Part shown: positions 2,934 to 34,058 of the stretch, in pieces
How the letters are laid out: the number at the start of each line of letters is the position of its first letter
Numbering within the stretch: position 1 is the first letter of the stretch
From: Eubacteriales bacterium
Lineage (GTDB): Bacteria > Bacillota > Clostridia > Lachnospirales > Lachnospiraceae
NCBI GenBank assembly: GCA_030525875.1
Contig: JAUNDV010000022.1
Location: 1-34,587, forward strand
Direction of reading: 5' to 3'
DNA: 34,587 bases
Translations under genes and position numbers: made by a program
Notes under the pieces: model-generated
Told to the model about the DNA's origin: nothing
Database searches by the model: none
The model's input: only the letters and a program-made list of their open reading frames with translations

Positions 2934-2954
2934 CTTGTTTCACCTAATCATTTG

Positions 2955-3072: not shown

Positions 3073-3166
3073 GTTAGAAATAAGATATGCATAAGCACTT
3101 TTTATAATATGTAATTATAGTATAATTTTCCATTTATCTCCACCACTGTCATAACTTAGTTTTCTG

Positions 3167-3205: not shown

Positions 3206-3243
3206 CGAAAATATATCTTATATTTTATTTTATATATTATATA

Positions 3244-4368: not shown

Positions 4369-4430
4369 AATCAATCTCTCAATCTATAATAATTTTTATA
4401 TTATCTATGGTTCTGCCATAACAGACTTCT

Positions 4431-4452
4431 AGCGGGGCATATATACCCCGCT
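4431..4452 (-). promoter_or_regulatory. GC-rich hairpin between dnaK and dnaJ
   Basis: Perfect 7-base-pair stem (AGCGGGG with CCCCGCT) around an 8-base AT loop, 15 bases after the dnaK stop. No T-run follows on the minus strand, so it is not a full terminator. It is more likely an mRNA-stabilising or processing element that sets dnaK above dnaJ. Confidence 0.55.
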
Positions 4453-4467
4453 CAAGCCTTTTATAGA

Positions 4468-6330
4468 TTATACCTCTTTGTAATCTCCGTCAACTACATT
4501 ATCATCATGTGGAGCTTCTCCAGCACCCTGATTCATATCAGGAGCTGCACCGCCCTGTGCCTGCTGGGCCTGCTCATACATCTTTGTAAATACCGACTGG
4601 GATGAATTCATGAGCTTTTCCTTAAGTCCTTTGAGCTTATCTATCTGCTCTGGTGTAGGAACTGCATCTGCTGGGATTTCCTTAAGCGCATCCTTAAGTG
4701 CATCTATATCAGCCTGAACTGCTGTTCTGTCACTCTCAGATACCTTATCTCCAACTTCCTTAAGTGCCTTCTCTGTCTGGAATACGATTGAGTCAGCCTC
4801 ATTTCTAGCATCGATTCCTTCCTTCTTGCGCTTATCCTCTGCCTCAAACTGCTGTGCTTCACGTACAGCCTTATCTATATCATCCTGTGACATATTAGAA
4901 CCTGAAGTAATTGTAATATGCTGTTCCTTGCCAGTTCCAAGATCCTTTGCTGATACATTAACGATACCGTTGGCATCGATATCGAACTTAACCTCGATCT
5001 GAGGGATTCCTCTTGGAGCAGGAGCAATTCCATCAAGTCTGAACTGTCCAAGTGTCTTATTGTCCTTTGCAAACTCACGCTCACCCTGTACTACATGAAT
5101 GTCAACTGCTGTCTGGTTATCAGCTGCTGTTGAGAATACCTGCTGGGCTGTTGTAGGAATAGTTGTATTTCTCTTAATGAGAGGTGTAGCTACTCCTCCA
5201 AGTGTCTCAATACTAAGTGTAAGAGGTGTTACATCAAGAAGAAGAACATCGCCTGCACCTGCATCTCCTGCAAGCTTTCCACCCTGTACTGCAGCACCGA
5301 TAGCTACGCACTCATCTGGGTTAAGTGTCTTAGAAGCTTCCTTACCTGTAAGCTTCTTAACCTCTTCCTGTGCACAGATCATACGTGTTGATCCACCTAC
5401 AAGAAGTACCTTTCCAAGATCTGCATTTACTACGCCTGCATCTCTCATAGCATTCTGTACAGGAATTGCTGTACGTGCTGTAAGCTCTGATGTAAGTTCG
5501 TCAAACTTAGCTCTTGTAAGATTCATATCAAGATGCTTTGGTCCTTCCTGAGTAGCTGTAATGAATGGGAGGTTGATATTTGTTGTAGTAGCTGCTGAAA
5601 GTTCCTTCTTAGCCTTCTCTGCTGCTTCCTTTAATCTCTGCATAGCCATCTTATCAGAAGAAAGGTCTATTCCCTCTGCCTTCTTGAACTCACTTACAAG
5701 ATAGTTCATAACAGCATTATCATAATCATCTCCACCAAGATGAGTATCTCCATTTGTAGCCATAACCTCTACAACACCATCTCCGATGTCAATGATAGAT
5801 ACATCAAATGTACCACCACCGAGGTCATAAACCATAACCTTCTGCTCCTTCTCATCCTCAAGTCCATATGAAAGAGCTGCTGCTGTAGGCTCATTGATAA
5901 TACGCTTTACATCAAGTCCGGCAATTCTTCCGGCATCCTTTGTTGCCTGACGCTGAGCATCATTGAAGTATGCAGGAACTGTAATAACAGCCTCTGTTAC
6001 CTTCTCACCAAGGTAGCTCTCAGCATCTGCCTTAAGCTTCTGAAGAATCATTGCTGATATTTCCTGTGGTGTATAGCTCTTATCATCTATTGTTACCTTA
6101 TAATCTGATCCCATATATCTCTTGATTGATGAGATAGTTCTGTCTGGGTTTGTAATAGCCTGTCTCTTTGCAGGATCTCCTACAAGTCTCTCTCCTGTCT
6201 TTGTGAATGCAACTACTGATGGAGTTGTTCTCTGTCCCTCTGCATTAGGGATAACTGTTGGTTTTCCACCTTCCATAACTGCAACGCAGCTGTTTGTTGT
6301 ACCTAAGTCAATTCCAATAATCTTACTCAT
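4468..6330 (-). CDS. dnaK: Chaperone protein DnaK (Hsp70)
   Basis: 620 residues, the usual length. It is an ATP-driven chaperone that binds exposed hydrophobic segments and works with DnaJ and GrpE in the cytoplasm. The nucleotide-binding domain opens with [19 protein letters not shown] (phosphate-1 loop) and contains [25 protein letters not shown] and a LLVGGSTRM segment; the linker is [16 protein letters not shown]. The substrate-binding domain and helical lid follow, ending in a Gln/Ala-rich stretch and the acidic tail DGDYKEV. A strong AAGGAGG ribosome site precedes the ATG. It lies 59 bases after grpE and is regulated by HrcA through the CIRCE operator upstream of hrcA. Confidence 0.99.
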
Positions 6331-6389
6331 TTTCTTTTCCTCCTTGGAAATCTATCAAAAATTAAAATGTATTTATGTTAAAACCTTAA

Positions 6390-7061
6390 TTAGTTTGCTA
6401 CCTTTACCATCGAATATCTAAGTACCTTGTCCCTGAACATATAACCCTTCTGGAACTCTTCTACTACGATATTCTCTCCTACAGTATCATCCTCTATATG
6501 CATAACTGCATTGTGAAGATTTGCATCAAATTCCTTTCCCACAGCTTCTATTGGCTCTGTTCCAAGTTCCTTAAGCGTATCTAAGGTTGAACGGTATATC
6601 TTCTCCATTCCTTCAACATAGCTGCTTCCCTTTAATTCCTCTGGAACACTTGCAAGTGCTCTTTCAAAATTGTCTACTATATTAAGCACCTTAACGAGTA
6701 CAGCTCTCTCTCCTTCAGCATACATTCCTGCTTTTTCTGTTTCTGTACGCTTTCTAAAATTGTCAAACTCTGCAAAGAGACGTTTGTACTTATCTGTAAG
6801 CTCATCTATCTTTTCGTCTTTTTTATCTTTCTTTAAGCTAGCCTTTTCTTCAGTATCTTCTGCACTCCCAGCACCTGTCCCAGCATCTTTTTTTTCATCT
6901 GCTGGCTCAGCATTTTCAGCAGTGGCTTCTTCAGGACTTATTGATTTATCTTCTGAAAATATCTCCTCAGAACGATTATTGCCTTCATTTACTTCCTGCT
7001 GCCCGCTAAATATATCCTGTGTCTCTTCCATCATTTCTTCTATATTCTTATCTTCTGACAT
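6390..7061 (-). CDS. grpE: Nucleotide exchange factor GrpE
   Basis: Two ATG codons stand in tandem (7064 and 7061). AAGGAG is 6 bases from the second and only 3 from the first, so the second is preferred (223 residues). GrpE dimers release ADP from DnaK. The N-terminal 80 residues are acidic and low in complexity. A long coiled coil follows from about 80 (KIDELTDKYKRLFAEFDNF, then RKRTETEK), and the C-terminal beta head carries HNAVMHIEDD, GYMFRDKVLRYSMVKV. The acidic N-terminal extension is longer than in many GrpE proteins, which is common in Clostridia. It sits 15 bases after hrcA. Confidence 0.97.
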   Translation of the reverse strand: MSEDKNIEEMMEETQDIFSGQQEVNEGNNRSEEIFSEDKSISPEEATAENAEPADEKKDAGTGAGSAEDTEEKASLKKDKKDEKIDELTDKYKRLFAEFDNFRKRTETEKAGMYAEGERAVLVKVLNIVDNFERALASVPEELKGSSYVEGMEKIYRSTLDTLKELGTEPIEAVGKEFDANLHNAVMHIEDDTVGENIVVEEFQKGYMFRDKVLRYSMVKVAN

Positions 7062-7076
7062 CATCTGCTCCTTTAT

Positions 7077-8120
7077 TCATTCCTTTTTAAAAGCCTGATC
7101 AAGCTGATTCATCAAGTTCTGCATAGTAGAAAGAACCTTCTCATAATCCATTCGCTTTGGACCTATAACTCCGATAACACCTCTTAATCCATCACCTATT
7201 TCATAATTAGCTGTTACAAGAGAACAATCCTGCATGTTCTGAATCGGTCCCTCTCCTCCAATATAAACCTGAAGTGCATTGGCATTGTCTTCATCGCCTT
7301 CGCTGAGACTTGTTACGGTACTTACAAGCTTCTTAAGCTGATCCTTTTCCTCAAATGCTGAGATAAGCTCACTCGCCTTATCAATTTCAGCAAGCTCTGG
7401 ATATTTGAAAATATTTGTCGCTCCTGAAGTAAATATTTCTCTTTCTTCCTCAGCTTCAAGCATCTCGGCAACCGCATCAAGTACAGCCTTCACTGTTGAT
7501 GAATGTTCACCTGCTTTAAGCATTATATCCGAAACAACTCTGGTTGAAATCTCAGTAAAACTTAATCCGCTAAGATGATTATTAAGCATAACAGTAAGAT
7601 TTAGTACTGTTTCATAATCCAGATCTTCATCTATACTGATAACCTCATTTTTTATGATATTGCCCTCAAGTACGAGTATAAGCAACAGTTTCTTTTCTGA
7701 TGGAACACTAAGCTGAAGATATTTAATCTTATTCTCTGAAAGTGAAGGTCCACTTATAAGAGCAGCATAATTTGTATCCACTGCAAGAAGCTTAACCAGA
7801 TTCTTAAGAAGCATCTCAAGCTTATCCACTCTCTTTATCATGAGACCAGTTACTTCGTTAACCTTTCTCTCATTGTCCTGCATAATGCTGTCTACATAAA
7901 ATCTGTAACCCTTATCTGAAGGAATTCTTCCGGCAGATGTATGTGGCTGTAAAATATATCCCATTTCTTCGAGATCGCTCATCTCATTTCTTATAGTGGC
8001 TGAACTTAAATTCAATCCACTATACTTTGAAATGGTTCTTGATCCTACAGGCTCACCGGTTTCGAGATAGTTCTTGATAATTGTTTTTAAAATAATTATT
8101 TTTCTGTTATCGAGTTCCAT
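7077..8120 (-). CDS. hrcA: Heat-inducible transcription repressor HrcA
   Basis: 347 residues, full length. It is a cytoplasmic repressor that binds the CIRCE operator and needs GroEL to stay active. The N-terminal winged helix contains GEPVGSRTISKYSGLNLSSA, then TIRNEMSDLEEMGYI and the HTSAGRIPSDKGYRFYVD block that identifies the family. The GAF-like middle and the C-terminal GVIGVIGPKRMDYEKVLS signature are present. It is the first gene of the heat-shock operon and sits just after its own operator, so it represses itself together with grpE, dnaK and dnaJ. Confidence 0.98.
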   Translation of the reverse strand: MELDNRKIIILKTIIKNYLETGEPVGSRTISKYSGLNLSSATIRNEMSDLEEMGYILQPHTSAGRIPSDKGYRFYVDSIMQDNERKVNEVTGLMIKRVDKLEMLLKNLVKLLAVDTNYAALISGPSLSENKIKYLQLSVPSEKKLLLILVLEGNIIKNEVISIDEDLDYETVLNLTVMLNNHLSGLSFTEISTRVVSDIMLKAGEHSSTVKAVLDAVAEMLEAEEEREIFTSGATNIFKYPELAEIDKASELISAFEEKDQLKKLVSTVTSLSEGDEDNANALQVYIGGEGPIQNMQDCSLVTANYEIGDGLRGVIGVIGPKRMDYEKVLSTMQNLMNQLDQAFKKE

Positions 8121-8154
8121 CCTCTCACCCGCCTTCCTTTTCTCTCTTTTTATG

Positions 8155-8181
8155 TTAGCACTCTGTGTCTTTGATTGCTAA
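8155..8181. promoter_or_regulatory. CIRCE operator (HrcA binding site)
   Basis: TTAGCACTC at 8155-8163, a 9-base spacer, then GATTGCTAA at 8173-8181. The known consensus is TTAGCACTC-N9-GAGTGCTAA, so this has exact spacing and one mismatch in one arm. It spans the probable transcription start and lies 35 bases upstream of hrcA. Confidence 0.95.
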
Positions 8182-8188
8182 CACAGAT

Positions 8189-8217
8189 ATAATATAATAC
8201 CGCCTGACAAATGTCAA
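8189..8217 (-). promoter_or_regulatory. Sigma-A promoter of the hrcA operon
   Basis: On the minus strand a consensus TTGACA (8212-8217) and TATTAT (8189-8194) are separated by exactly 17 bases. The predicted start falls at the edge of the CIRCE operator. Confidence 0.88.
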
Positions 8218-8222
8218 GCGGT
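8199..8222 (-). terminator. Hairpin after hemW that also contains the hrcA -35 box
   Basis: An imperfect dyad, ACCGC-TGACA against TGTCA-GCGGT with one internal mismatch, lies about 40 bases after the hemW stop and is followed on the minus strand by an AT-rich run (TATTATATTATAT). It could terminate hemW transcripts. The hrcA -35 hexamer lies inside it. Confidence 0.5.
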
Positions 8223-8260
8223 ATGCCATCAAAATATATAAACTTTATATAAACAATATT

Positions 8261-9436
8261 TTATGTAAGAAGGAATTCACTCATTACCTGATTTGCAAGC
8301 TCCATTCCCCTTTTTGTAAGATAATATCTGCTTCCACTATGCGCCATAAGGCCGTTTGAAGTAAAATTTATAAGCTGTTTTCCAAAAACAGATATCAACG
8401 TTCTTCCAAATCTTAGTCTGAAGTCATCCTCTGATATTCCTTCTGTCATCCTGAGTCCAAGGAACATAAATTCTTCCATCTCTTCCTCAACTTTAAGCTT
8501 TGAAATTTCACCCCTCAAAATTGAAATAGGATTATCTTCTGAAATATACTTATCACTATTTTTAAGATCCAGTTCAAGATATTCCTTTATAGAAGATGTA
8601 TTACTCCATCTCATATCATTAAAAAATGAAGCAGCTCCAATACCAAAGCCTATATAAGGAGTTCCTGTCCAGTACCCCTTATTATGTCTGCATTCAAAGC
8701 CTTGCCTTGCAAAATTACTTATTTCATATCTTGCATAGCCTTGTTTCTCCATAAATTCAAGCGTAAAATCATCAATTCTTGCCTGCTCATCCTCATCTGG
8801 TAAAAGCAGCTGTCCCTTCTTATATAAGTCACCAAAAGGTGTCCCATCTTCAACTATCAGATTATATACCGAAATATGTTCGGGCTTAAGCATTGTAACC
8901 TGTCTTAAGGATTTCTTCCATGTCTTTATACTTTGCATAGGAATACAGTCTATAAGATCTACATTTATATTCTCGAAACCTGCTTTTCTGGCAGCTTCGT
9001 AACTCTTAAGAAAATCCTCTGCTGTATGTATTCTTCCTAATATCTTAAGTTCATTATTATCAGCAGACTGAAGTCCTATACTGAGTCTGTTTATTCCTGT
9101 CGCTCTATATGTCTCAAATTTTTCCCTGAGTGCAGAGGCAGGATTGCATTCAATTGTTATTTCTGCATCCGGTATCACATCATAGTTTTTAAATATGCAG
9201 TCCATTATCAATGCGATATCCTTGGAAGGCAATATAGAAGGTGTTCCTCCACCTATAAAAATGGAGCTTACGGAGTATGGCTCACATTCCTTAGCCACCG
9301 CTCCAAGCTCCATTATAAGCTGCCTTACATATGATTCCTTGGTTTCACTATCTGATGTGAATGAAAGGAAATCACAATAATTACACTTTGCTGCACAAAA
9401 AGGTATGTGCAGATACAATTCTAAATTATGTTTCAT
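8261..9436 (-). CDS. hemW: Radical SAM heme chaperone HemW (formerly called HemN-like)
   Basis: 391 residues. HemW binds heme and a [4Fe-4S] cluster and is thought to hand heme to target proteins; many homologs are mislabelled coproporphyrinogen III oxidase. The start LELYLHIPFCAAKCNYCDF has the radical-SAM cysteines at 14, 18 and 21, with the Cys-x3-Cys-x2-Cys spacing and no extra fourth Cys as in true HemN. IFIGGGTPSILPS follows, then the SAM-binding strand with TIECNPAS, RLSIGLQS and the C-terminal HemN_C-like domain. Its ATG overlaps the TGA of the upstream 3D-domain gene (TGATG), and AAAGG precedes it, so translation is coupled. It precedes hrcA, as in Bacillus. Confidence 0.95.
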   Translation of the reverse strand: MKHNLELYLHIPFCAAKCNYCDFLSFTSDSETKESYVRQLIMELGAVAKECEPYSVSSIFIGGGTPSILPSKDIALIMDCIFKNYDVIPDAEITIECNPASALREKFETYRATGINRLSIGLQSADNNELKILGRIHTAEDFLKSYEAARKAGFENINVDLIDCIPMQSIKTWKKSLRQVTMLKPEHISVYNLIVEDGTPFGDLYKKGQLLLPDEDEQARIDDFTLEFMEKQGYARYEISNFARQGFECRHNKGYWTGTPYIGFGIGAASFFNDMRWSNTSSIKEYLELDLKNSDKYISEDNPISILRGEISKLKVEEEMEEFMFLGLRMTEGISEDDFRLRFGRTLISVFGKQLINFTSNGLMAHSGSRYYLTKRGMELANQVMSEFLLT

Positions 9437-10159: not shown

Positions 10160-12115
10160 TTATGCATGCTTAAAAATAGCTGTAACAGCTTCAAAAATCC
10201 TTACAAATACCCTTTTTACTCTTCCAAAAAGTCCTATATCTGTACCTGCATCCTCTGCATCTACTATAGGTGTTGTCTTATCTTCATCAGTAATTTCTTT
10301 TGTTCTTAACACTATCTGCATTGAAGAAGGAGCATCATTTTTATCAGAGGTAAGGCTAATTCTTTCTGCCTCAGGATCAATATTTAAAAAATTATTTTCT
10401 TCCTCCATCTTTTCTGTTTCATCATCAAGTGTATCTTTAGCCAGCTTTCCTGATTCTCTCATATCATCTGTTGCATCAAACATTTTCATAGATCTGTCTA
10501 TCATACTTATTGATGCATCTATACTCTGTGAAAGGGCATCATCTGTTGTTTCCATAACATCCTTCAAGGTATCCTGAGCCATCAAGAGTGCATTTGAGCC
10601 TGCATCAAGACTTGAACCACTCTTTTCAAATATTGCCTGTGTTGTTGTTAATATTCCTTGAAGATCTGGATACATTAAATTGAGTGTTTCATTTGTGTCT
10701 TCAATATTTTGAATTACGGTCACAAGTCCCTCTGATGTAAGTCTTGCTCCCCCTGCTGTTCTGGTAGCTCCGGATAAGAGCTTTTCTATACTGTTGCTTG
10801 TTTTATCCAGCTGTTCAAGAATATTTTTTAACTTTTCCGCCTTATCCTTAATCTCATCTACAATATTTCTAAGTGAAGCATCCTTTGTAAGCTCTATATC
10901 CGCATATTCTGCTGCAAGATCATTAAGTTCATCCTCTATCTGCACTTTTTTGTCATTGAGCTTATCTAACAGATCCCCTAATTCACTAAGATCATTTTCA
11001 GTAGCAACAGAACCATTAGACAGTCTCTTTAATCCTTCAGACATATGATCAAGTGTATCCTGAAGTTCTGATATAGAATTCACAAGCATATTTAGGTTTG
11101 TGTTGAGTGTATGAAGCTTATCCTGTGATGCGCTTATATAAGGTATCATGTCCTGCATCTTGGATGAAAGATCCTTGATTTCATTTAATGCTTCTTCATT
11201 AGCTTCAAATACTGAGTCCTTTGAAGCTTCCATCTGTGCTCTGGCTTTATCTGCATTTACAAGACTTGCTCTTATATTAATCATATCCTCTCTCATAGAA
11301 GATATTACCTCCAGCATGCTGTCAAGGCTGTCATACATGGCATCACCAGAGTCCTTCCAGGTGTCCTTCAAATTCTTTATATCCACTATATTATTAAGAC
11401 TGTCCGCAGTTCCTGGTATAAGCGTAATCATAATACCGCTCATTTCAAAATCATTGGCACCAAGTCTTACTGTAAACTCCTTTTCTTCACCTGGCAGACC
11501 TGTATACATCACTCCTGAAATATTTCCTATGCTTTGTATCTGCGCACCTGGAGCGTCTATAGAATAAATCTTTTTACTATCTATAGGTATGATTACTGCA
11601 AGAAGCATATTGTTTTTTAGATAGGCATTACAATTTTCATTAGGAACAGCCTTTATATTTATCTCTATAAGACCATCTGCACCGCTCAAATGTTCTGCTT
11701 CTACTTCTACGCCATTTAACTTATAGCTAATGTCAAAATTCCATGGAAGAGATACCTGATTATTATTCATTTGTCCTTCAAAATAGAACTTCTGCCCATT
11801 TCCTTTTATATCTAATTCAAGCTTTCCATCCTTGTAATTGAGCTCATCATTTGAAGACATATTTGTTACTTTTCCATAATCACCAAAATCTGTATATTTT
11901 ACATTTTTTGTGGAATTAATTCCTTTTACAATATTTACATTTTCAGGATTTCCATAATAATCCAAATTAACATACAGATTTTCATCTACATTTACATATT
12001 GCATATCCTCTGGATTTTGTGTTCCTGCGTATGCCGGTATTACAAGAGACATTATGTTTGCAAGAACCAACACGGCTGCAGTTACCTTTTTACTTCTATA
12101 ATCTCTCTTTTTCAT
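10160..12115 (-). CDS. Secreted coiled-coil protein, probable partner of the MMPL exporter
   Basis: 651 residues. There is a signal peptide at 1-30 (TAAVLVLANIMSLVIPAYA), a beta-rich region from about 35 to 240 (short strands such as GYGKVTNM, KFYFEG), then long heptad-bearing helices from about 260 to 560 (for example LDKLNDKKVQIEDELNDLA), and an amphipathic C-terminus (KRVFVRIFEAVTAIFKHA). It resembles the YhgE/Pip-like and other exported coiled-coil regions that accompany or are fused to MMPL exporters in Gram-positives. Its start overlaps the exporter stop by one base, so the two are translated together. No enzyme motif is seen. An adaptor or tether outside the membrane is the likeliest role, by inference. 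Confidence 0.6.
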   Translation of the reverse strand: MKKRDYRSKKVTAAVLVLANIMSLVIPAYAGTQNPEDMQYVNVDENLYVNLDYYGNPENVNIVKGINSTKNVKYTDFGDYGKVTNMSSNDELNYKDGKLELDIKGNGQKFYFEGQMNNNQVSLPWNFDISYKLNGVEVEAEHLSGADGLIEINIKAVPNENCNAYLKNNMLLAVIIPIDSKKIYSIDAPGAQIQSIGNISGVMYTGLPGEEKEFTVRLGANDFEMSGIMITLIPGTADSLNNIVDIKNLKDTWKDSGDAMYDSLDSMLEVISSMREDMINIRASLVNADKARAQMEASKDSVFEANEEALNEIKDLSSKMQDMIPYISASQDKLHTLNTNLNMLVNSISELQDTLDHMSEGLKRLSNGSVATENDLSELGDLLDKLNDKKVQIEDELNDLAAEYADIELTKDASLRNIVDEIKDKAEKLKNILEQLDKTSNSIEKLLSGATRTAGGARLTSEGLVTVIQNIEDTNETLNLMYPDLQGILTTTQAIFEKSGSSLDAGSNALLMAQDTLKDVMETTDDALSQSIDASISMIDRSMKMFDATDDMRESGKLAKDTLDDETEKMEEENNFLNIDPEAERISLTSDKNDAPSSMQIVLRTKEITDEDKTTPIVDAEDAGTDIGLFGRVKRVFVRIFEAVTAIFKHA

Positions 12116-14265
12116 CAGTCATTCCTCACAATCAGATTTTTAAGTTTATTTATTCTTTCTTCTCTTCTCTTTTTGAGATATTTTAAGAAACGCTCCATCT
12201 CATTTTCACGAAGAAGAGGATCAATAAGTACTAGTAAAGCAGGAAGAAGTCCTAAAACAAGTAATACGCTCATCCATGCTCCTCTTCCTATAAGATGTCC
12301 AAGCTCTCCTATTGCGGATATTGTAGATATGTAATAAAGAATATATCCACAAATTGTAAGTATTGACCCAGATGTCAGTATTGCAGGAATACTTCTGTTA
12401 AGTGTCCATATAGCTGCCTTTTGTGGATCTAGCTTCTCTTTATTTCTTGCTTCAATATAGTTTGAGGTCGTAAGTATGGAATAATCTACTGTAGCTCCAA
12501 GCTGTATACAGCCTACAATTATATAACCTATATAGTTAATCTCATCTCCTGCAAAATAAGGTACTGCCATATTTAGGAAAATAGCAAATTCAATCGGTAT
12601 CATTACTACTATAGGTATAGCTAAGGAATGGAAGGAAATCATTACTACTACAAATACTCCAATAAGTGATAAGGCATTTACAAGCTTGTAATCCTTAGTT
12701 ATTACCGTCTTTATATCCTGTGTTGCCGGAGTTCCTCCAACAAGATATGAGTCCTCAGGATAGTATTTTTTCACTATGGAAAGAACCTCATCAGCTGCAT
12801 TAAAGGCTGCTTCACTTTCTTCCTTTGTTCTTGTAAACATAAGCATTCTTGCATAATTATCTGTATGGAGAAGCTCTGTAAGATTAGATGGAAGGAAATC
12901 CTCAGGTACGCCTTCTGGAATCTTATCTACAAGAGAATCTACACTCTTCATATAAGGAAGATCTTCCAGCTCATCGCAAAGTGCCTTTTCTGTAACATTT
13001 GAAGTATTAGGAACTATTGCCATCATCATATTGGATCTTCCAAATTTTTCTATTATCTTAAGGTCATTTTCATATACCTGTGTTCCTTCACTTGCACCAA
13101 CTGATGCATTTCCAAACAAAAATGAGTTCATTGACTGTGCTGTATACAGCGGTATAACTGTTACTATAGCAAAAAGCAAAATAAGTTTTCTTCCTCTATA
13201 TATAAGCTTTGAAAATTTAGTGAAGTTAGGAAAAAATGATCTGTGCGCTGTCTTATCAAGAAGAGCTGACATTCTTAAAATCAGTGCTGGCATAAGCAAT
13301 AGAACTGTTGCCAGTGAACAAACAATTCCTTTTGTAAGCGCAAGACCAAGGTCAAATCCTATTCTAAACTTCATAAATACAAGTACCACAAATCCTACTA
13401 TTGTCGTAAGGGAAGAAGCTAGGATGGAATTTATTGCCTCATCAATAGCCGCTGTAAGTGCCGCTTTTTGTTCCATTCCCTGATCCTTGTATCTTGTATA
13501 AGCATGAAGAAGGAAAATAGAATAATCCATTGATACGGCTAACTGTAATACAGCAACAACATTATCCGTAAGAAATGAAATCGTACCCAGCATTACATTA
13601 CTTCCTTTATTTAGGAGAATTGCAACACCCATAACCGAAAGAAACAAAACCGGCTCCATCCATGATGTTGTAGTGAGCATAAGTATTATGAATATCATGA
13701 TTACAGCAATTACCATTATCATACTTAACTCACGTCTTACATTTTCTTCCAGTGATTTGTTCTGTGCCGCCATACCAACAAGATAGCCATGGTCTCCTAC
13801 AAGCTCATTTATAGCATTTATAGCTTCTACAGTATGCTCGTCGGAATCCCCGTATTCAAAGGTTATATCCATAACAGCACAATTATCTTTGTAATATTCG
13901 TCTATGGCATCATAATCTATAAAATCGGACGACCCATATACGTCATTTGTACTATCGCACCACATGACCATATCTACTCCGGGTATAGCCTCTACAGCAT
14001 CTTTGGTTCTTTTGGCCTCATACAGGTCGACATCTCTTATCATAAGACGTCCTGTTCCAGGATATCCAAACTCCTTCTCCATAAGATCAAGTCCTTGCTT
14101 TGATTGTACAAAAGAAGGAAGATATTCTGTCAGATCATAATTCACCTTTACAAAAGGCATAAAAAAAAGAGAAATTAAACACAGGAGAAAAAATACCTTT
14201 TCAATTGCTCTTGAATGTTTAATAATGAAATCTGGCAGGTAAAACTTTTCTTTTTTGTTATTCAT
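12115..14265 (-). CDS. MMPL/RND-superfamily exporter
   Basis: 716 residues with the two-fold RND layout: TM1 at about 20-40, an outer loop domain, a five-TM bundle at about 180-335, TM7 near 360-380, a second outer domain, and five TMs from about 530 to 690. Each half has the Asp-Tyr pair used for proton relay in MmpL-type transporters: SMDYS at 246-249 (pair 247-248) and TVDYS at 593-596 (pair 594-595). It exports a lipid, drug or peptide using the proton gradient, but the substrate is unknown. AAGGAG lies 9 bases before the ATG. It is transcribed away from a TetR-type gene, whose product probably represses it, and together with the secreted coiled-coil protein. Confidence 0.9.
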   Translation of the reverse strand: MNNKKEKFYLPDFIIKHSRAIEKVFFLLCLISLFFMPFVKVNYDLTEYLPSFVQSKQGLDLMEKEFGYPGTGRLMIRDVDLYEAKRTKDAVEAIPGVDMVMWCDSTNDVYGSSDFIDYDAIDEYYKDNCAVMDITFEYGDSDEHTVEAINAINELVGDHGYLVGMAAQNKSLEENVRRELSMIMVIAVIMIFIILMLTTTSWMEPVLFLSVMGVAILLNKGSNVMLGTISFLTDNVVAVLQLAVSMDYSIFLLHAYTRYKDQGMEQKAALTAAIDEAINSILASSLTTIVGFVVLVFMKFRIGFDLGLALTKGIVCSLATVLLLMPALILRMSALLDKTAHRSFFPNFTKFSKLIYRGRKLILLFAIVTVIPLYTAQSMNSFLFGNASVGASEGTQVYENDLKIIEKFGRSNMMMAIVPNTSNVTEKALCDELEDLPYMKSVDSLVDKIPEGVPEDFLPSNLTELLHTDNYARMLMFTRTKEESEAAFNAADEVLSIVKKYYPEDSYLVGGTPATQDIKTVITKDYKLVNALSLIGVFVVVMISFHSLAIPIVVMIPIEFAIFLNMAVPYFAGDEINYIGYIIVGCIQLGATVDYSILTTSNYIEARNKEKLDPQKAAIWTLNRSIPAILTSGSILTICGYILYYISTISAIGELGHLIGRGAWMSVLLVLGLLPALLVLIDPLLRENEMERFLKYLKKRREERINKLKNLIVRND

Positions 14266-14570
14266 TTCATTACTCCTTACAGTCTGTCATTTATGATTTG
14301 ACTAAAATAATTATCATATATATCAAAAAGTATTAATTACTGACAAAAGTTTGTTATATGTATAATAATTGTTTAATATACTATATTATATTATTGAACT
14401 TCTTGATATTTAATTGACATTTGTCTATTTATCTGTTAGCTTATTATATGTATGATACAGATTAAATGCAATGAGCAAAGGTATGTTTTTATATACGTTA
14501 GTGTACTTTTTAATATCAAAGTGTTTAATTTTATATTTTTTTTATAATTTACGTTAAGGAAGGCAAAACT
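14266..14570. other. 305-base divergent promoter region between the exporter and its TetR regulator
   Basis: Almost pure A/T. For the exporter (minus strand) TTGTCA (14341-14346) and TATATA (14317-14322, preceded by TGA) are 18 bases apart, a weak promoter candidate. A small dyad, ACAAA and TTTGT (14343-14347, 14350-14354), lies over that -35 box and is a weak candidate operator. For the regulator (plus strand) TATAAT at 14543-14548 is the best -10, but no good -35 is found. TTGACA at 14414-14419 has no matching -10. Nothing coding is seen. Confidence 0.45.
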
Positions 14571-15161
14571 ATGGCAAATGCAAAGGACAATGTCAGAGTA
14601 CCTGACAGAAGAGTAAGAAAAACAAAGGCACAGCTTAGAAAGTGCCTTGCAGAGCTGCTCAAGACAAAAAAGATAAATGAAATAACTGTTAAAGAACTTA
14701 CAGACATGTCGGATTTAAACAGAGGTACATTTTATCTTCATTATAGAGATGTATTTGATCTTCTGGAACAAACAGAAACCGAGATTATGGATGAATTTAA
14801 TGCAGCTCTCAATAAATATGAATATGATAAAATAAAATCCCACCCTTCCCTGATGCTGGAAGAGGTCTTTAATCTTGTTAAGGCAAACAAGGACATTATA
14901 AGCACTCTGGTAGGCGAAAATGGTGATCTTAATTTCATAAATCAGCTTTTAGACATTGTTAGAGAAAAATGCCTTAAAAATATGATTGAGCTATATAAGT
15001 CAAAGAATTCAGAGCACTTTGATGTATATTTCTGCTTTATTCTCTCTGGCTGTCTCGGAGTCGTAAAATACTGGCTAAAGAATGACTGCAAGGAAAGTCC
15101 ATCTGAATTAGCTCTTATTACAGAGAAAATCTTCAAAGAAGGAATTAATGTTCTGGATTAA
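14571..15161 (+). CDS. TetR/AcrR-family transcriptional regulator
   Basis: 196 residues. The N-terminal HTH (about 17-60) reads INEITVKELTDMSDLNRGTF and YLHYRDVFDLLEQ, characteristic of TetR proteins of the YxxY/FYLHYxD type. The C-terminal region is helical, with a ligand-type core (VKANKDIISTLVGENGD) that matches the TetR_C_7-like group common in Firmicutes. A GGAAGG ribosome site lies 7 bases before the ATG. It is divergent from the MMPL exporter, so local repression with release by the exporter's substrate is inferred. Confidence 0.88.
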   Translation: MANAKDNVRVPDRRVRKTKAQLRKCLAELLKTKKINEITVKELTDMSDLNRGTFYLHYRDVFDLLEQTETEIMDEFNAALNKYEYDKIKSHPSLMLEEVFNLVKANKDIISTLVGENGDLNFINQLLDIVREKCLKNMIELYKSKNSEHFDVYFCFILSGCLGVVKYWLKNDCKESPSELALITEKIFKEGINVLD

Positions 15162-28062: not shown

Positions 28063-28122
28063 TTTAATTTGTTTTTGTTTAATCTGTCTTTATTTAATTT
28101 ATCTTTGTTTAATTTTTTTAAT
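28063..28122. repeat. 15-base T-rich tandem repeat, about four copies
   Basis: TTTAATTTGTTTTTG, TTTAATCTGTCTTTA, TTTAATTTATCTTTG and a final TTTAATTTTTTT run head to tail just after the uvrB terminator and into the stop of the converging secreted-protein gene. It is low complexity and probably slippage-derived. Confidence 0.75.
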
Positions 28123-29380
28123 CAACCATGTAAGCTTCGTGTATCATTCCTTTTCTATTTATACGCTCTAAAACATGTGTTTCATCATATTTTAATTCTG
28201 TTGTCTTATCTCCTATCCTTATCCTATATCTTATCGGTTCATAAGTAAGCTTTATATCGCCTCCTCTTTCAGGAATGGCTATTTTCCCTGGTGTCAAATA
28301 TCCCTTTGTTTCCGGTGGTGTAAAAAAAGCTCCAGGTTTCATAGAATATTCAATATTTTTAGTATAACCATTATACTGGCATATAACATTTCCACTTACA
28401 TTAAACTGATACGAACATGACGGACATCTGGATAATTCATTTTTTGCTCCATGTTTCTCTTTACCAAGATTTCTCTTACACTGGGTACAAATTAAATTGT
28501 GATTTACTTCATCTCCTGCTATTTGCTCTGCCCTTTTCTGAGTATGTGAACACAAAGCCATGTTGATTGAGCTTGCAAGATTTGTACATCCCTGTTTTCC
28601 TACATTCATACTATAACTTCCTTCTTCCTTGAATCCAGCAGCCCAGTTTATATTATTATCAGTACACAGCTCTTTAAATCTTTTTAACTCATCTCCGCTC
28701 AGATCCCAGTATCCTTTAAATTGAAGTCTTCTCTTATCCGGACTTGAACTACCTACAGAACTAAAACTCAATGTTGTGACCGTTCCTCTATATGCAGAAA
28801 CTTTGTCTTTAATTTGTATCCACGGATTTTGTAATGAGTGAGAATAACTATTTATTTTAGGATCTGGTGACAGCTGATATGTACATTTTCCACTTTCACC
28901 ACCAGCGTTATCTGACATATCCATATCTATATGGATTCTCACTGCATTTGCCCCTATGACTTCCGCTGAAAGATTATGTTTGTAGAAATATCCATAAAAT
29001 GGTTTAGCATCAACACCTGTAAGCCTGTGCCATCTTCTATTAGTATCATTACCTACAGTTCCATATGCATAAACACCATGATTTACAATACTGTCATCGG
29101 CCTCATTAGGCTCTGTAATCTCCCAGCCACCAAATATATTTCCTTCTTCATAATCTTCCATTGTCATTGAATAATATGAGAGGAACTCTTTATTATAACC
29201 TGCTTTAAGTCCTTTTTTCTCTTCATCAGCAATCTCTGGAAATGCATTATAAAAGCTATTCCATATATCTTCTGTATATTCATCTTCGGAAATCATGTTG
29301 TATTTATATTTTACTTCAGCAAAACTTATAATGTTGAATGAATACAGAATAGCTAATATTATAACTATCAGTTTTTTCAT
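28118..29380 (-). CDS. Secreted protein with a zinc ribbon, last gene of the SipW operon
   Basis: 420 residues, not recognised as a known family. A standard signal peptide (IILAILYSFNIISFA, cleaved near 21) predicts export by an ordinary signal peptidase rather than SipW. A zinc-ribbon pattern lies in the second half: CTQC at 298-301 and CPSC at 319-322, with CSH (277-279) nearby, and a further Cys at 334. The C-terminus, from about 345, is beta-rich (YTKNIEYSMKPGAFFTPP, then IRYRIRIGDKTTELKY). AGGAGGAGCAGT precedes the ATG, which overlaps the upstream stop by 4 bases. Cytoplasm-type CxxC ribbons are unusual on an exported protein. Its operon place suggests an accessory of the matrix or fibre. 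Confidence 0.7.
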   Translation of the reverse strand: MKKLIVIILAILYSFNIISFAEVKYKYNMISEDEYTEDIWNSFYNAFPEIADEEKKGLKAGYNKEFLSYYSMTMEDYEEGNIFGGWEITEPNEADDSIVNHGVYAYGTVGNDTNRRWHRLTGVDAKPFYGYFYKHNLSAEVIGANAVRIHIDMDMSDNAGGESGKCTYQLSPDPKINSYSHSLQNPWIQIKDKVSAYRGTVTTLSFSSVGSSSPDKRRLQFKGYWDLSGDELKRFKELCTDNNINWAAGFKEEGSYSMNVGKQGCTNLASSINMALCSHTQKRAEQIAGDEVNHNLICTQCKRNLGKEKHGAKNELSRCPSCSYQFNVSGNVICQYNGYTKNIEYSMKPGAFFTPPETKGYLTPGKIAIPERGGDIKLTYEPIRYRIRIGDKTTELKYDETHVLERINRKGMIHEAYMVD

Positions 29381-30417
29381 ACTGCTCCTCCTGATTCTGA
29401 AATTATTTCAAGTCTTTGACCATCTGCAAAGATTTCAATATCTGTAATCTCAGCCAGATACCAGACTTTTACTGGCATTTCATACATGATTTTTGTACCA
29501 TTATCACCAAATCCTACCTCACATCTATAAATGTCTCCATTATCGGCTCTTGTTAATTTATCAGCTTTATAAACTGCACCTGCATGATCAATATCTGTAA
29601 ACGACTCTGTCCCTCGTTTTTTCACAGACCATTTATAACTATTTGCGTGCTCAGTTTCCGCATTAAGTAAAAGTCTCCTATACGAATAGTCAATATCTCC
29701 AAATGATTTTTTATAAGCCTCCTTATCTTGATATTTTTCTATATATTCTATAACCTGATTAGCCTTGTTAAGTTCATTCCACCCACCTGTATTCTCTTTA
29801 TCTACATTATCAGGTCCATTTCCATCACTGCCTCCTGGCAAAGTATTATTATTTTTTCTCCATAAAGCCTTAGCTATTGTTATTCCATCACTTCCATGTT
29901 CAGTTCTGGAAAGGTCTTCCTCATCGTCATTTGCTATATTGTATTTACATTTTTCTCCTATTATTTCTCCATCTCCTGAAGTTTGATTTATTTCCGGAGT
30001 TCTATTTCCTTTTAAATACCAGCCTATAAAATCATATCCTTCTCTTACTGGAGCATTTGGTTTTATTATATATTCTGTATTATCTATCAATTCAGGACTG
30101 TCTGGATTTCCATTATATATTTTCCCACCATCATTATATACAACCTCAGTCAAATAACCTTTTTGTCCATCTGTAAACTCTCCTTCACCACATTCAAATC
30201 TAAGCTTGTATCTTTTGGGTGTATATAAAGGATTAAGAGAAATCTCTTTATCATTGACATCCGTAAGATTCTTTATTTCGGCTTCAACATTTAAAATATC
30301 TCCTTTTGTTGCAATTCTATCCAAAAACATTCCTGCTGCCATTGCATTTATCGTACATACCATAGAAGCTATGGCAATAATCACTATATTTTTTTTATTA
30401 TTTTTCAAAAAAATCAT
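29377..30417 (-). CDS. SipW-type exported protein with InlB-like repeat and Ig-like domain
   Basis: 346 residues. The N-terminal signal region (hydrophobic 10-28) runs into AAGMFLDRIATKGDILNVEA, which matches the A-x-x-F-x-D...LxVxxxxI signature after the cleavage site in TasA-type SipW substrates. An InlB/Listeria-Bacteroides-type repeat follows (YKLRFECGEGEF to PVREGYDFIGWYLKG, about 70-137), then a linker with charged low-complexity residues and an Ig-like domain at about 255-320 (W263 in YKWSVKKRG, C299 in DIYRCEV). AGGTGAT precedes the ATG; the stop overlaps the next gene by 4 bases. Surface adhesion or fibre subunit role is inferred. Confidence 0.7.
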   Translation of the reverse strand: MIFLKNNKKNIVIIAIASMVCTINAMAAGMFLDRIATKGDILNVEAEIKNLTDVNDKEISLNPLYTPKRYKLRFECGEGEFTDGQKGYLTEVVYNDGGKIYNGNPDSPELIDNTEYIIKPNAPVREGYDFIGWYLKGNRTPEINQTSGDGEIIGEKCKYNIANDDEEDLSRTEHGSDGITIAKALWRKNNNTLPGGSDGNGPDNVDKENTGGWNELNKANQVIEYIEKYQDKEAYKKSFGDIDYSYRRLLLNAETEHANSYKWSVKKRGTESFTDIDHAGAVYKADKLTRADNGDIYRCEVGFGDNGTKIMYEMPVKVWYLAEITDIEIFADGQRLEIISESGGAV

Positions 30418-30445
30418 AATCTAATAATCACCTGCCTATATAGAC

Positions 30446-31447
30446 TTACGAGTCTTGAATTATTTTTTTACATACAAGTTTGCCTGCTTTTTCTAGAAAA
30501 ACAAAAAATGGAGAAGAAATAGTTCCTGCTTTATTTTTAACTGTATATCTTATTTCAGTGTTTAAATTAGATGAATTAAGACAAAGTGATAGTGCCCCAT
30601 CTTCATCAGCCTTAAGTTTCTTATCCTTATTATTCATCTTTCTGTAAAAAATAACATCTGAAGTATCTCCTTCTGCATCCTTAATTACTGGTTTAATTCT
30701 TATAAAATAAGCCTTCTTACCTGCAATACAGTTTCCATTTTGATCTACAGTCTTATCGCTTCCTATTATTTCAGAAAATCCTTTTACTTCTGAATCTTTT
30801 TCCTCAGCCTTATTTTTTATTTGTTCAAAAACCTTAGTAGGATCTGAGGAATCTTCAATAGTCCACTCATTTCCTTTTATCTGAGTTATTGCAAATTGCA
30901 TTTCTGGGATTATAAGAATTGACGGAGCAAGGTTTACATCTTTACTTTCTTCTATCTTAATTATAAATTTATATTTTTTCTCTTCTCCCGGCTTGCACAA
31001 TTCAGATTTAAGAAAAATTTCTTCACTTATCTGTCCATTTCCATTGAACACAATATTTTTTAAAAGTTTTCTTCCCTCTGCATTTTCTCTATATACTGCA
31101 AGCTTGTCCCCTTCTTTAATATTTTTAATTTTCAATATAAGCTTTGGAACAATATATGCATCTGTTGAACCTTTATAAACTGTCCTAAAGTTAAAATTAA
31201 ATTCATCATTTTGCTTTATTGGATCAATTTTATTATCCAGCTCATTCAGATCAGCTGATACTTTCATATCCTTTCCAGTATTATTAGGACTATTTTCTGG
31301 TAAATTAAGAGAAAGATCAGCCGTTTTTATAAGAATTTTTTGATCTATAACATCGCTAAAAAAAGCTGCCGTTATACTCATACCTGCAATAACAGTGAAT
31401 AACGTTATAAACAGCATAATTTTTAAAAGCTTTTTTCGATTGATCAC
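30446..31447 (-). CDS. TasA/camelysin-like SipW substrate (larger)
   Basis: 333 residues, GTG start (31447) overlapping the upstream stop (GTGA). A basic-hydrophobic signal (RKKLLKIMLFITLFTVIAG) leads into SITAAFFSDVIDQKILIKTA and DLSLNLPEN, the AFFSD plus later LxLxL pattern of TasA/CalY-type proteins cleaved by SipW. The mature part is rich in beta strands and Lys/Asp, with no sorting motif. GGGGG lies about 10 bases before the GTG. It may be a fibre subunit or its chaperone; the exact subfamily is not fixed. Confidence 0.75.
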   Translation of the reverse strand: MINRKKLLKIMLFITLFTVIAGMSITAAFFSDVIDQKILIKTADLSLNLPENSPNNTGKDMKVSADLNELDNKIDPIKQNDEFNFNFRTVYKGSTDAYIVPKLILKIKNIKEGDKLAVYRENAEGRKLLKNIVFNGNGQISEEIFLKSELCKPGEEKKYKFIIKIEESKDVNLAPSILIIPEMQFAITQIKGNEWTIEDSSDPTKVFEQIKNKAEEKDSEVKGFSEIIGSDKTVDQNGNCIAGKKAYFIRIKPVIKDAEGDTSDVIFYRKMNNKDKKLKADEDGALSLCLNSSNLNTEIRYTVKNKAGTISSPFFVFLEKAGKLVCKKIIQDS

Positions 31448-32142
31448 GGTTCTTCAACCCCCTTTGTGCCATCGACCTGCTCTATCCAATTGTTATCTTG
31501 TCTTATCTCCTCAGTGTTTCTATGTTGCATAGCATATGTTTTTATTTGCACCTCTGCTGCAGCACCCATAAAACCAACATCAGAAGACTCACTTAATTTA
31601 AGTGCTGTGGAAAACGCTTTAGTAGTTATAATTTTTCCTTCATTGACATCTTTATCTAGCTCAGGATCCTTTTGAATACTTCCTGCTAATGTAATTCCTC
31701 TCTTAGCTGTATACACAGCTTTATTAAAAGCTGTTCCATTTGAATTAGCTACTTTTACATCATTTAAAAAATATTCAATTTCAAATTCTTCAATAGCTTT
31801 CGTGTCATTATTATTTACAAGCATAAATTCAGAACCACCAATGGTCATATTTTTATCACTTTTTATGCTTATAACGGGTTTAATATCAACAGATGTTTTA
31901 CCTGTATTACTTACAGAAAAATTAATATCCGATTTTTGACCTGGAACGAAAGCCTCATTACCAGCAATATTTAAAGCCTCCTCATCATATTGTATCCCTA
32001 TATCCAAGGTTCCAATATTACTACTTAAATCTATTCTTTCTGTCCAATATGCCATTGACGCAATTCCTATAGACGCAACCGCAATTAATGCTATTGATAT
32101 AGTTACTACTAATTTTTTTGATAACTTATTTTTTTTATTCAT
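31444..32142 (-). CDS. TasA-like SipW substrate (smaller), candidate main fibre subunit
   Basis: 232 residues. The signal (KKLVVTISIALIAVASIGIA) is followed by SMAYWTERIDLSSNIGTLDI, which lines up with the TasA pattern WAAFND...SGTLDL; cleavage is expected after the SMA. The mature part is a predicted beta-sandwich of about 200 residues (INFSVSNTGKTSVDIKPVIS), the size and kind of TasA/CalY subunits. It follows sipW with a 4-base ATGA overlap. TasA polymers form matrix fibres in Bacillus; polymerisation here is inferred only. Confidence 0.78.
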   Translation of the reverse strand: MNKKNKLSKKLVVTISIALIAVASIGIASMAYWTERIDLSSNIGTLDIGIQYDEEALNIAGNEAFVPGQKSDINFSVSNTGKTSVDIKPVISIKSDKNMTIGGSEFMLVNNNDTKAIEEFEIEYFLNDVKVANSNGTAFNKAVYTAKRGITLAGSIQKDPELDKDVNEGKIITTKAFSTALKLSESSDVGFMGAAAEVQIKTYAMQHRNTEEIRQDNNWIEQVDGTKGVEEP

Positions 32143-32642
32143 GCAATACTCTCTTTCATCTTCTCTGCTATCTTTGATATTTGTCCCGGAAGATTGAAAA
32201 TAAATACTACCTTCCCTTTAATATCATCTGGATCAAGCAGTTCAATATCGTTTATCCTATTATTATCTCCCTTTGTAATAAGATATTTTTTCTCACCATT
32301 ATTAAACGCTTCTTCATCCCTTCCAATAAGTCTGTGTGTAACATAGGTATTTCCAACTTTATATGTTATTATGTCTCCTGCATTAACATTTTCATGTCCT
32401 GCTTTTTTTAGAATTACAATAGAATGCTTTAATATTGTATTTTCCATAGAGCCACTGACTATGTACACGGGTTTATATCCACATATAAATCCTAACTCAC
32501 CACTTTTTCTTTCTCTGATTCCAGCTTCAACACTCAGAAATGTTATAATGATAGAAGCCACAATCACAATATCCATAACGATCTGAATTAAAAAGCTAAA
32601 GGATTTCTTCAAAAAACTATACAAGCTTTGCTCCATTCTCAT
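32139..32642 (-). CDS. sipW: Signal peptidase I, ER-type (SipW)
   Basis: 167 residues. An N-terminal TM (about 16-38) leads into the catalytic serine in VSGSME (Ser65) and the histidine in VTHRLI (His103), the Ser-His pair of the ER/SipW subfamily rather than the Ser-Lys of ordinary bacterial enzymes; TKGDNNRIND (about 123-132) is the third conserved box. A second TM seems present near the C-terminus (KVVFIFNLPGQ). In Bacillus SipW processes TasA and TapA. It overlaps the upstream anchor gene by 26 bases and the downstream substrate by 4, a sign of tight coupling. Confidence 0.93.
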   Translation of the reverse strand: MRMEQSLYSFLKKSFSFLIQIVMDIVIVASIIITFLSVEAGIRERKSGELGFICGYKPVYIVSGSMENTILKHSIVILKKAGHENVNAGDIITYKVGNTYVTHRLIGRDEEAFNNGEKKYLITKGDNNRINDIELLDPDDIKGKVVFIFNLPGQISKIAEKMKESIA

Positions 32643-33939
32643 CTACTGTATACCCATCCGGAGTTTTTTCATTCATAAATAAAGATCCGTAGGTTCGTCC
32701 TCCAAGATTTTTATATATCCATCTTCCAAAAGCAGTATTAAAAAACCAATTTTGCCTATATGTATCTTCAAGCTTTGCAAAATAATACTCCTTTTCAAGT
32801 CCATTTTTATCCTTGATTTTATTCCATCCGCTTAGCATTCTTCCATTTAATTCACTTAAATAATACCAGTGTCCATCCTCTGTACTATTGAGCCATCCTG
32901 TTACAAGATTTCCTCTATTGCCATTTGATACTTCATTTGCATAGTACCATGACTCATTTTCACATCTTATCCATCCAGTCTGCATATAACCATCTTTATC
33001 AAAATAATACCAGCTCGAAGTAGCTTTAGGCTGCCCATATGGATTAAACAATAATGCCCATCCATCTTTAATATACGTTCCGTCTTTTAACTTAAAGCTC
33101 CATTTATTATCTCTTTGTTCCCAGCTTCCTTCATATGAACTATTTTTAAGTTTAAGATCAGGAACTGCATAAACCTTTGCAGCCGCCGTTTCCATAGAAG
33201 AGGTATCTAAAGTGTTATTAAACTTACCACCATTAAATCCACTACCTGCTGCATGACCTCCTCCTTGAGATGAGGGTCCATGAGAACCTCCCCCTGATGA
33301 ATTTCCTCCTGACGAGCCTCCGCCCGACGAACTGCCTCCTGATGAGCCGCCTTGATTATCATCATTGCCGTCTTCATCATTGTCGGTATTTCCATCTGAA
33401 TCTCCTGATCCATCTGAACCATCTATCGTTCCATTTTCTCTATCAGAAACAAGATACACAAAACGAAGATTCCTAGTTTCACCTTGAATCTCATTTCCAC
33501 AGCTAATAGGGATGTGCAAACTATACTTATATTTTTCAACTTTGCCTTTATCAATGATCAACTCCGGTGTATATGCCTTACTAAAACTTCCATCATATAA
33601 GGTTTTTCCTGATTTATCAGAGATTATAAGCTTTAAGCTATCCATAAGTTTTTGACCTTCAGGATGCCCATATATTCCCTTCAGTCTGTAATATATTATG
33701 TTTCCCGTTTTATTTGAAACTTCAAGTTCTCCCTGTACAGTGTCACCAGGAATTAACGACACTTCTTCGAATATTCCCTGACGTGATATACTAATACTTT
33801 TTTTACCAGCAGACTCTTCAATATTAAGTTTTCCTGTTGCAGCATATGCAGTTATACCAGCTGTAGCAAAAAATGAACTCAATATCAGTCCAAATAGCAA
33901 AAGCAAGCATCTATCACAGCATTTACTTTTAAAATACAT
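32617..33939 (-). CDS. Secreted wall-binding protein with beta domain, Gly/Ser linker and choline-binding-type repeats
   Basis: 440 residues from the ATG at 33939, chosen because GGAGGA lies 10 bases upstream; the longer frame (to 34044) would translate its own ribosome site. Signal peptide to about 34 (ITAYAA). Domain order: a beta-sandwich at 35-165 (SLIPGDTVQGELEVSN, YKYSLHIPIS), a flexible acidic then Gly/Ser-rich linker at about 167-245, and aromatic-rich repeats at about 275-430 (SWYYFDKDGYMQTGW, ESWYYANEVSN, NGHWYYLSE-like) as in choline-binding/glucan-binding modules. The repeats suggest non-covalent wall attachment and the beta domain may hold the fibre. It is the first gene of the operon. 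A TapA-like role is only an analogy. Confidence 0.82.
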   Translation of the reverse strand: MYFKSKCCDRCLLLLFGLILSSFFATAGITAYAATGKLNIEESAGKKSISISRQGIFEEVSLIPGDTVQGELEVSNKTGNIIYYRLKGIYGHPEGQKLMDSLKLIISDKSGKTLYDGSFSKAYTPELIIDKGKVEKYKYSLHIPISCGNEIQGETRNLRFVYLVSDRENGTIDGSDGSGDSDGNTDNDEDGNDDNQGGSSGGSSSGGGSSGGNSSGGGSHGPSSQGGGHAAGSGFNGGKFNNTLDTSSMETAAAKVYAVPDLKLKNSSYEGSWEQRDNKWSFKLKDGTYIKDGWALLFNPYGQPKATSSWYYFDKDGYMQTGWIRCENESWYYANEVSNGNRGNLVTGWLNSTEDGHWYYLSELNGRMLSGWNKIKDKNGLEKEYYFAKLEDTYRQNWFFNTAFGRWIYKNLGGRTYGSLFMNEKTPDGYTVDENGAKLV

Positions 33940-33993
33940 TTTTGAATTTCCTCCGTTTCCGGAAGATTGAAAAAAAGAATTTAGAAAATAGAT

Positions 33994-34020
33994 AATATCC
34001 ATGTTTTCAAACATGATATT
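33994..34020 (-). promoter_or_regulatory. Leader hairpin of the SipW operon
   Basis: AATATC, one bulged base and ATGTTT pair with AAACAT and GATATT; the inner CATGTTT/AAACATG is perfect. It lies at the very 5' end of the predicted mRNA. A T-rich stretch follows only about 12 bases later, so it is more likely a stabilising 5' hairpin than an attenuator. Confidence 0.55.
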
Positions 34021-34029
34021 GTTATAATA

Positions 34030-34058
34030 ATTATATATAAACACATGTATATGTTCAA
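34030..34058 (-). promoter_or_regulatory. Promoter of the SipW operon
   Basis: On the minus strand TTGAAC (34053-34058) and consensus TATAAT (34030-34035) are exactly 17 bases apart. It implies an mRNA start near 34023 and a leader of about 84 bases. Confidence 0.65.

Follow-up and report, generated by a model that had tools for sequence, protein, structure and literature searches.

How are the surface fibres built from TasA- and BsaA-type subunits held on the cell that makes them? To our knowledge, the attachment of these matrix fibres to the cell is poorly settled, and a gene cluster from a gut member of the Lachnospiraceae bears on this question and offers a handle on the surface fibres of these unstudied organisms. 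The cluster is located on contig JAUNDV010000022.1 of an Eubacteriales bacterium (assembly GCA_030525875.1), the 34,587 nucleotides of which are referred to here as the window, and consists of six tightly packed open reading frames, g1 to g6, on the minus strand between positions 28118 and 33939. We infer, with a probability of about 0.7, that this operon encodes a TasA/BsaA-type surface fibre that is joined by donor-strand exchange and seated on a non-covalent wall base, because it combines a SipW signal peptidase with a conserved Ser/His pair, a gene order that is kept among relatives, proteins of TasA-like similarity, and a base domain that is paired with TasA-like genes elsewhere in the family. 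A first-pass annotation had placed the signal peptidase, a wall anchor and three TasA-type substrates in one operon; it overlooked the TasA-like front domain of g1, the sixth member g6, and the family-wide pairing of this domain with TasA-like genes. The features of the locus are:

32617-33939, minus strand: g1, putative wall-bound base protein with a classical signal peptide, a TasA-like front domain, a Gly/Ser-rich linker and choline-binding-type repeats
33424-33840, minus strand: front domain of g1 (the base domain), with a Pro-Gly box
32620-33132, minus strand: choline-binding-type wall repeats of g1, limits approximate (NCBIfam residues 271-437, Pfam repeats from residue 308)
32139-32642, minus strand: g2, SipW, an endoplasmic reticulum (ER)-type signal peptidase
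31444-32142, minus strand: g3, TasA/CalY-like protein with a TasA-type signal end, likely the main fibre subunit
30446-31447, minus strand: g4, putative second SipW-type substrate, with a TasA-like N-terminal part and an unrelated C-terminal third
29377-30417, minus strand: g5, exported accessory protein with a Listeria-Bacteroides (InlB-type) repeat, not TasA-like
28118-29380, minus strand: g6, exported accessory protein in which a Cys/His set of zinc-ribbon-like spacing is invariant
34030-34058, minus strand: weak promoter-like site upstream of g1, TTGAAC-17-TATAAT (35 such sites in the scanned stretch against 32.6 expected by shuffling)

The arrangement of the genes and the identity of the peptidase agree with the first-pass annotation. 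Neighbouring frames overlap by 26 (g1/g2), 4 (g2/g3), 4 (g3/g4) and 4 (g5/g6) bases, and the single gap, between g4 and g5, is 28 bases, as befits one tight operon. The g2 protein scores 83.6 bits against the SipW/ER-type signal peptidase I model TIGR02228, above the curated cut-off of 51.85, and is the sole match to this model in its genome; against the Bacillus SipW model NF046067 it remains below the cut-off (55.5 bits, cut-off 190). The catalytic Ser-His pair that distinguishes such enzymes from the Ser-Lys type had been read as Ser65 and His103, and both residues are invariant across 10 aligned g2 orthologues.

If g2 is a SipW, which proteins of the operon would it process? An aromatic residue at P2' has been linked to the SipW-cut protein TasA, with neighbouring residues described as also contributing (PMC10269814). 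The signal ends proposed earlier as TasA/CalY-like (MAYWTERID in g3, AAFFSDVID in g4 and AAGMFLDRIA in g5) are all literally present in the window, and we scored a strict motif, A-[FYWL]-[FYW]-x-[DE], in the orthologue sets, finding it in 10/10 g3, 8/9 g4, 0/9 g5, 0/9 g6 and 0/11 g1 proteins. A looser motif tried first had given 10/10 for g3, 9/9 for g4, 3/9 for g5 and 3/11 for g1; the stricter form was adopted because the looser hits in g5 and g1 and two placements in g4 fall either within the hydrophobic core of the signal peptide or far into the protein. The signal end of g3 reads A-[YFL]-W-T-[DE] in all 10 orthologues (nine with an aromatic residue and one with Leu in the second place), the cleavage point being predicted from this pattern. 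As the motif would put an aromatic residue right after the cut, g3 and g4 should suit SipW better than ordinary signal peptidases.

The mature part of g3 probably belongs, by sequence comparison, with the TasA/CalY-like superfamily. It aligns over 154 columns with a set of six camelysin-like proteins (hhalign 97%, E 4.9e-11), of which five were scanned with PF12389: four match, two of these exceeding the cut-off, and L092 does not. We also assembled 37 TasA/BsaA sequences. Of 40 candidate frames, a signal end could be recognised in 27, and all but one of these, which was too short, were kept (26), together with 11 of 12 earlier sequences. Against this set, for which the g3 model served as part of the selection and the loci had been found with the g1 domain, g3 reaches 96.7%, the mature part of g4 90.5%, and the last third of g4 0.08%, marking that third as unrelated. 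When g4 is compared instead with g3, or with the smaller sets of TasA proteins, values of 0.1-46% result; 90% was reached with the 37-sequence set only. In 20 column shuffles each, the top scores were 15.8 for g3, 12.4 for g4 and 14.6 for the own-genus g1 domain, against real scores of 64.3, 46.9 and 43.5. PF12389 matches five of 10 g3 orthologues at E<=1 (best 8.8e-6), the BsaA family TIGR04090 gives no match to the window g3 and one in 10 orthologues at E 0.014, and the TapA model TIGR04087 matches one of nine g4 orthologues at E 0.16. NCBIfam TafF was rejected as a name for g3, having matched one orthologue at E 0.00072 with 18.8 bits against a cut-off of 420; among the open-licence papers listed by a literature search, none used the word TafF.

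Since the closest Pfam family is named camelysin metallo-endopeptidase, and the C-terminal third of g4 and the whole of g5 and g6 lack TasA-like similarity, g3 and g4 might instead be separate non-fibre surface adhesins or camelysin-like proteins, soluble or wall-bound, with g1 an ordinary choline-binding-type surface protein. We consider this unlikely: g3 retains both the aromatic N-terminal end and a Pro-Gly box (10/10 orthologues; the box is also present in 8/8 g1 base domains), regions described as protomer interfaces (PMC10151520, PMC9674648), and the base domain is tied to TasA/BsaA-like genes, as set out below.

The extension of the substrate list to g5, as the first pass had it, fares differently. 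A third SipW-processed fibre subunit could be argued from the M-F-L-D that follows the signal of the window g5 and from Listeria-Bacteroides repeat proteins of G096 and G020 that carry an aromatic signal end. Against it, the motif occurs in none of nine g5 orthologues, window copy included, and both g5 and g6 score below 1% against the 37-sequence set, as g5 also does against the smaller TasA-like sets; g5 as a third substrate is thus rejected on the motif and the missing TasA-like match, and an arrangement of three substrates is very improbable. The profile comparison proposed earlier upheld TasA-like character for g3 and for the front of g4 and failed to find it in g5. The domains claimed for g5 divide likewise: the InlB-type repeat is real (PF09479, E 2.4e-7, above the cut-off in the window protein, with matches at E<=1 in seven of nine orthologues), and the Ig-like part is weak (one of nine, E 0.0056). 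In g6, residues C277, H279, H294, C298, C301, H310, C319 and C322 are invariant in nine aligned orthologues, and no Pfam family scores above its cut-off in the window protein. Among 348 sampled genomes of the family, two of them from the genus, full-length g6 was found in its own genome only; short partial matches occur in six others, in open frames of 166-3612 aa.

The g1 protein suggests how such a fibre might be attached. Its C-terminal repeats match PF19127 with 45.1 bits against a cut-off of 27 (E 9.4e-12), in keeping with the repeat-based wall-binding anchor that had been annotated, and 11/11 own-genus g1 proteins read share this repeat end (Pfam on the window copy, NCBIfam on three). 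We take the repeats to be a putative anchor of choline-binding type, the ligand being predicted. The front domain of the own-genus g1 proteins aligns at 97.7% (hhalign, E 1.6e-12) with five SipW-locus proteins that were picked with the g1 profile itself, which detected six proteins (E 4e-4 to 5e-14) encoded at SipW loci outside the genus. Against the 37-sequence set it reaches 91.5% with the own genus alone and 93.8% when the five outside proteins are added, against two small TasA sets 72-77%, and against g3 alone 7.9-60%. The TapA model TIGR04087 does not match g1 at E<=1, and no scan put a name to the front domain: Pfam (window g1, L069, L088, L158, L237) and NCBIfam (window g1, L069, L088, L094, L074, L014, L017) returned anchors, repeats or matches below cut-off only.

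Is this domain a peculiarity of one operon or a general partner of TasA-like genes? The base-domain profile matches 40 of the 348 family genomes, and of the other 39 genomes we examined 29, each at its best-scoring locus only. Within ~1.5 kb of the base domain, 27 of these 29 loci have a TasA/BsaA-like frame and 12 have sipW, one of these 12 being a fused frame in G212; four of nine TasA-like neighbours scanned exceed the BsaA-family cut-off. Three controls were considered. A lenient control, as the operon was already known to be absent from these loci, comprised 49 segments of the window and of twelve uvrB loci from the genus; TasA-like genes were found in none and sipW in one (the G013 relic described below). 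Among 13 loci fetched for other matches both counts were zero. A severe control, made up of 58 segments at a distance of ~5-8 kb from other sipW genes, gave TasA-like genes in three and sipW in five (E<=0.01). Beyond the family, Clostridium tarantellae (L088) has a base-domain protein with a sorting-like tail that follows a BsaA-family gene (99.7 bits, cut-off 60) and adjoins sipW and, judged by eye, a sortase-like gene.

The part of the protein behind the base domain varies. By a loose pattern used to assign anchor classes, 23 of the 29 base proteins end in a TG sorting-like motif with a hydrophobic tail, three in a hydrophobic tail only and one (G096) in choline-binding-type repeats, with two ambiguous. 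The G096 locus (L237, contig C48), from another genus, has its repeat-anchored base protein next to sipW, and the frame after sipW joins an aromatic signal end to a Listeria-Bacteroides repeat. These endings bear on a further possibility, that the g1 repeats bind host or dietary glycans or neighbouring cells and that g1 is a fibre tip or aggregation adhesin rather than a base. The repeats do match the glucan-binding repeat model TIGR04035 weakly (E 0.0093) and their ligand is a predicted one; elsewhere, the same front domain ends in a sorting-like signal (23/29) or hydrophobic tail (3/29) that would fix the protein to its own cell, and we regard a tip or aggregation role as quite unlikely.

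Tentatively, and with the odds slightly against so broad a claim, we propose that the front domain defines an unnamed Firmicutes family of TasA-like, strand-exchanging fibre-base proteins with interchangeable anchors (sortase-type signal, hydrophobic tail or wall-binding repeats) that would be the shared point of attachment so far missing for TasA/BsaA fibres; in some lineages, of which several lack sortase, non-covalent repeats would have been exchanged for the earlier anchor. A single 647-aa open frame in G212 (L257, contig C31, 184-2124) that matches both SipW and the base domain fits this proposal; the frame is either a natural fusion or an assembly artefact. The sortase family PF04203 has no match in the genome of the window (97.75% complete); it is matched in six of 13 operon carriers, eight of 12 non-carriers and 28 of the 29 base-domain genomes, G096 included. 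Given its presence in these six carriers and in G096, a missing sortase alone does not explain the swap of anchors and can be only part of the story. The base-domain family deserves a name, and its occurrence alongside TasA-like genes in genomes across a gut family, combined with different anchors, constitutes a testable general answer to how these fibres are attached.

Within the genus, the operon is recurrent and patchy. A single-sequence search with g3 gave matches in 11 of 61 genomes, namely its own and 10 of 24 from the same genus, and in none of 36 others. All six genes keep their order in eight relatives as well as in the window (9/9 uncut operons), which answers the earlier suggestion that recurrence be checked; two further contigs end inside the operon. 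Profile searches of the 25 genus genomes detected g3 in 11, g4 in 15 and g6 in 14, and 13 genomes (G000-G003, G006, G008, G009, G011, G012, G015, G019, G023, G024) carry the operon or a contig-cut part of it, with partial or divergent matches (g6 in G020 and G022; g4 in G014, G018 and G022) left out of this count. G006 has g6 only and G009 g4-g6 only, both at contig ends, and no sipW or g3 was found in either, so genes may be truly missing there. Among named genomes with SipW, the best 80 of 383 confirmed loci contain the operon only in L023 and L024, metagenome-assembled genomes labelled Lachnospiraceae bacterium in which gene positions match those of G001 and G019. The description of a distinct Lachnospiraceae system thus holds for the six-gene form and mostly for the anchor type, which look lineage-specific, and not for the pairing of base domain and TasA-like gene, because that pairing occurs elsewhere in the family.

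The site of the operon is constant. Downstream of g6 and convergent with it lies a gene that we identified by eye as uvrB, and g6 faces uvrB in 12/12 carriers whose contig allows the check; the 12 non-carriers have no operon 3' of uvrB in the 2 to 14 kb read. In G013 (L170, contig C40, segment 1-15500) a lone open sipW at 12638-13288 adjoins uvrB, and none of g3-g6 was detected in the segment; this gene seems to be left over from the operon. Mapped onto a uvrB tree of 24 genomes, the distribution of the operon needs four changes against 8.3 for shuffled labels, with one of 500 shuffles as low. A single location on the chromosome, a scattered distribution and a solitary sipW are consistent with an old operon that was lost several times.

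Under the fibre reading, the operon proteins would be exported by Sec, and SipW would remove the signal peptides of g3 and g4. As in TasA, whose subunits are described as joined by an N-terminal donor strand (PMC9674648), the processed g3 subunits would assemble into a polymer, with the released N-terminal strand most likely serving in donor-strand exchange, and g4 may be incorporated as a minor or terminal subunit, with its additional C-terminal part on display. The g1 protein would be cut by an ordinary signal peptidase and held on the wall by its choline-binding-type repeats, which here would replace the sortase-type end usual for this domain in related organisms, and its TasA-like front domain would seat or start the fibre, a role comparable to that of CapP in B. 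cereus or of TapA in B. subtilis, which is described as giving its N terminus to TasA (PMC10151520). The g5 and g6 proteins could perhaps be exported helpers in adhesion or assembly.

Several observations weigh against this scheme. The g1 protein lacks a TasA-type signal (0/11), in contrast to CapP and TapA, for which processing by SipW is described. Omitting the first strand region of g4 lowers its value against the 37-sequence set to 43.6%, and direct comparison of g4 with g3 gives only 22-46%. The window g3 is below the PF12389 cut-off (18.4 against 22.5 bits, E 0.0021), a search of its own genome with this family gave no matches at E<=0.001, and sequence searches against solved structures (PDB) gave no relevant match. 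The anchor history is also uneven, with sortase present in six carriers, two sortase matches in G096, the sole other genus seen with a repeat-anchored base protein, and none in G078, which has a sorting-like tail. Finally, G022 has a g1-g4-g5-g6 locus in which neither sipW nor g3 was found, so that g4 may not always depend on SipW. This locus (L158, contig C12, 24000-38000; genes at 2592-8861) holds divergent g1-, g4-, g5- and g6-like genes and a second repeat protein; its g4-like protein retains A-Y-F at the signal end, and the G022 genome (93% complete) has no TIGR02228 match.

The g1 gene probably starts at ATG 33939 rather than GTG 34044, because a GGAGG-like site precedes the ATG and the promoter-like site (34058-34030) would place the GTG upstream of transcription. 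At gathering thresholds, Rfam returned nothing but rRNA pieces, in two relatives. Elsewhere in the window, inspection by eye suggested restriction-modification genes of type I, at the edge of the contig, with a small RelE/HigB-like gene (1-2933) and a large MMPL-like membrane protein with a coiled-coil exported partner and a divergent TetR-like regulator (10160-15161).

Among the open-licence papers listed by searches on SipW with Lachnospiraceae, SipW with choline-binding, and TasA/SipW, no title or abstract opening describes such an operon, and the known systems each resemble it in part. The sipW-bsaABCRSD operon of C. perfringens is alike in joining SipW to a secreted TasA-like polymer in a clostridial operon; in the passages cited, secretion of BsaA requires SipW, deletion of the neighbouring sortase gene left the polymers unchanged, and the contribution of bsaB and bsaC is limited to an improved pellicle (PMC7395162). 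Unlike that operon, the one described here includes no two-component genes, and repeats would hold its base; for g4-g6 no counterpart was recognised. The tapA-sipW-tasA operon of B. subtilis shares a SipW, a TasA-like subunit and a fibre-starting accessory protein (PMC9674648, PMC10151520), whereas here g1 has a classical signal and wall repeats, and there are two TasA-like substrates and two extra exported proteins. Pneumococcal choline-binding proteins of the PspA and PspC type resemble g1 in their repeats, which match the models far under whole-protein cut-offs, and differ in that the front domain of g1 is TasA-like and its gene lies within a SipW operon. In B. cereus (sipW-tasA, calY, capP) there are likewise two TasA-like subunits and a two-part protein, CapP, reported to have an assembling N-domain and a C-domain that anchors it in the wall independently of sortase (PMC13082335). 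In that account, the C-domain of CapP is disordered and capP is transcribed alone, with a SipW-processed product (PMC13082335), whereas g1 carries choline-binding-type repeats.

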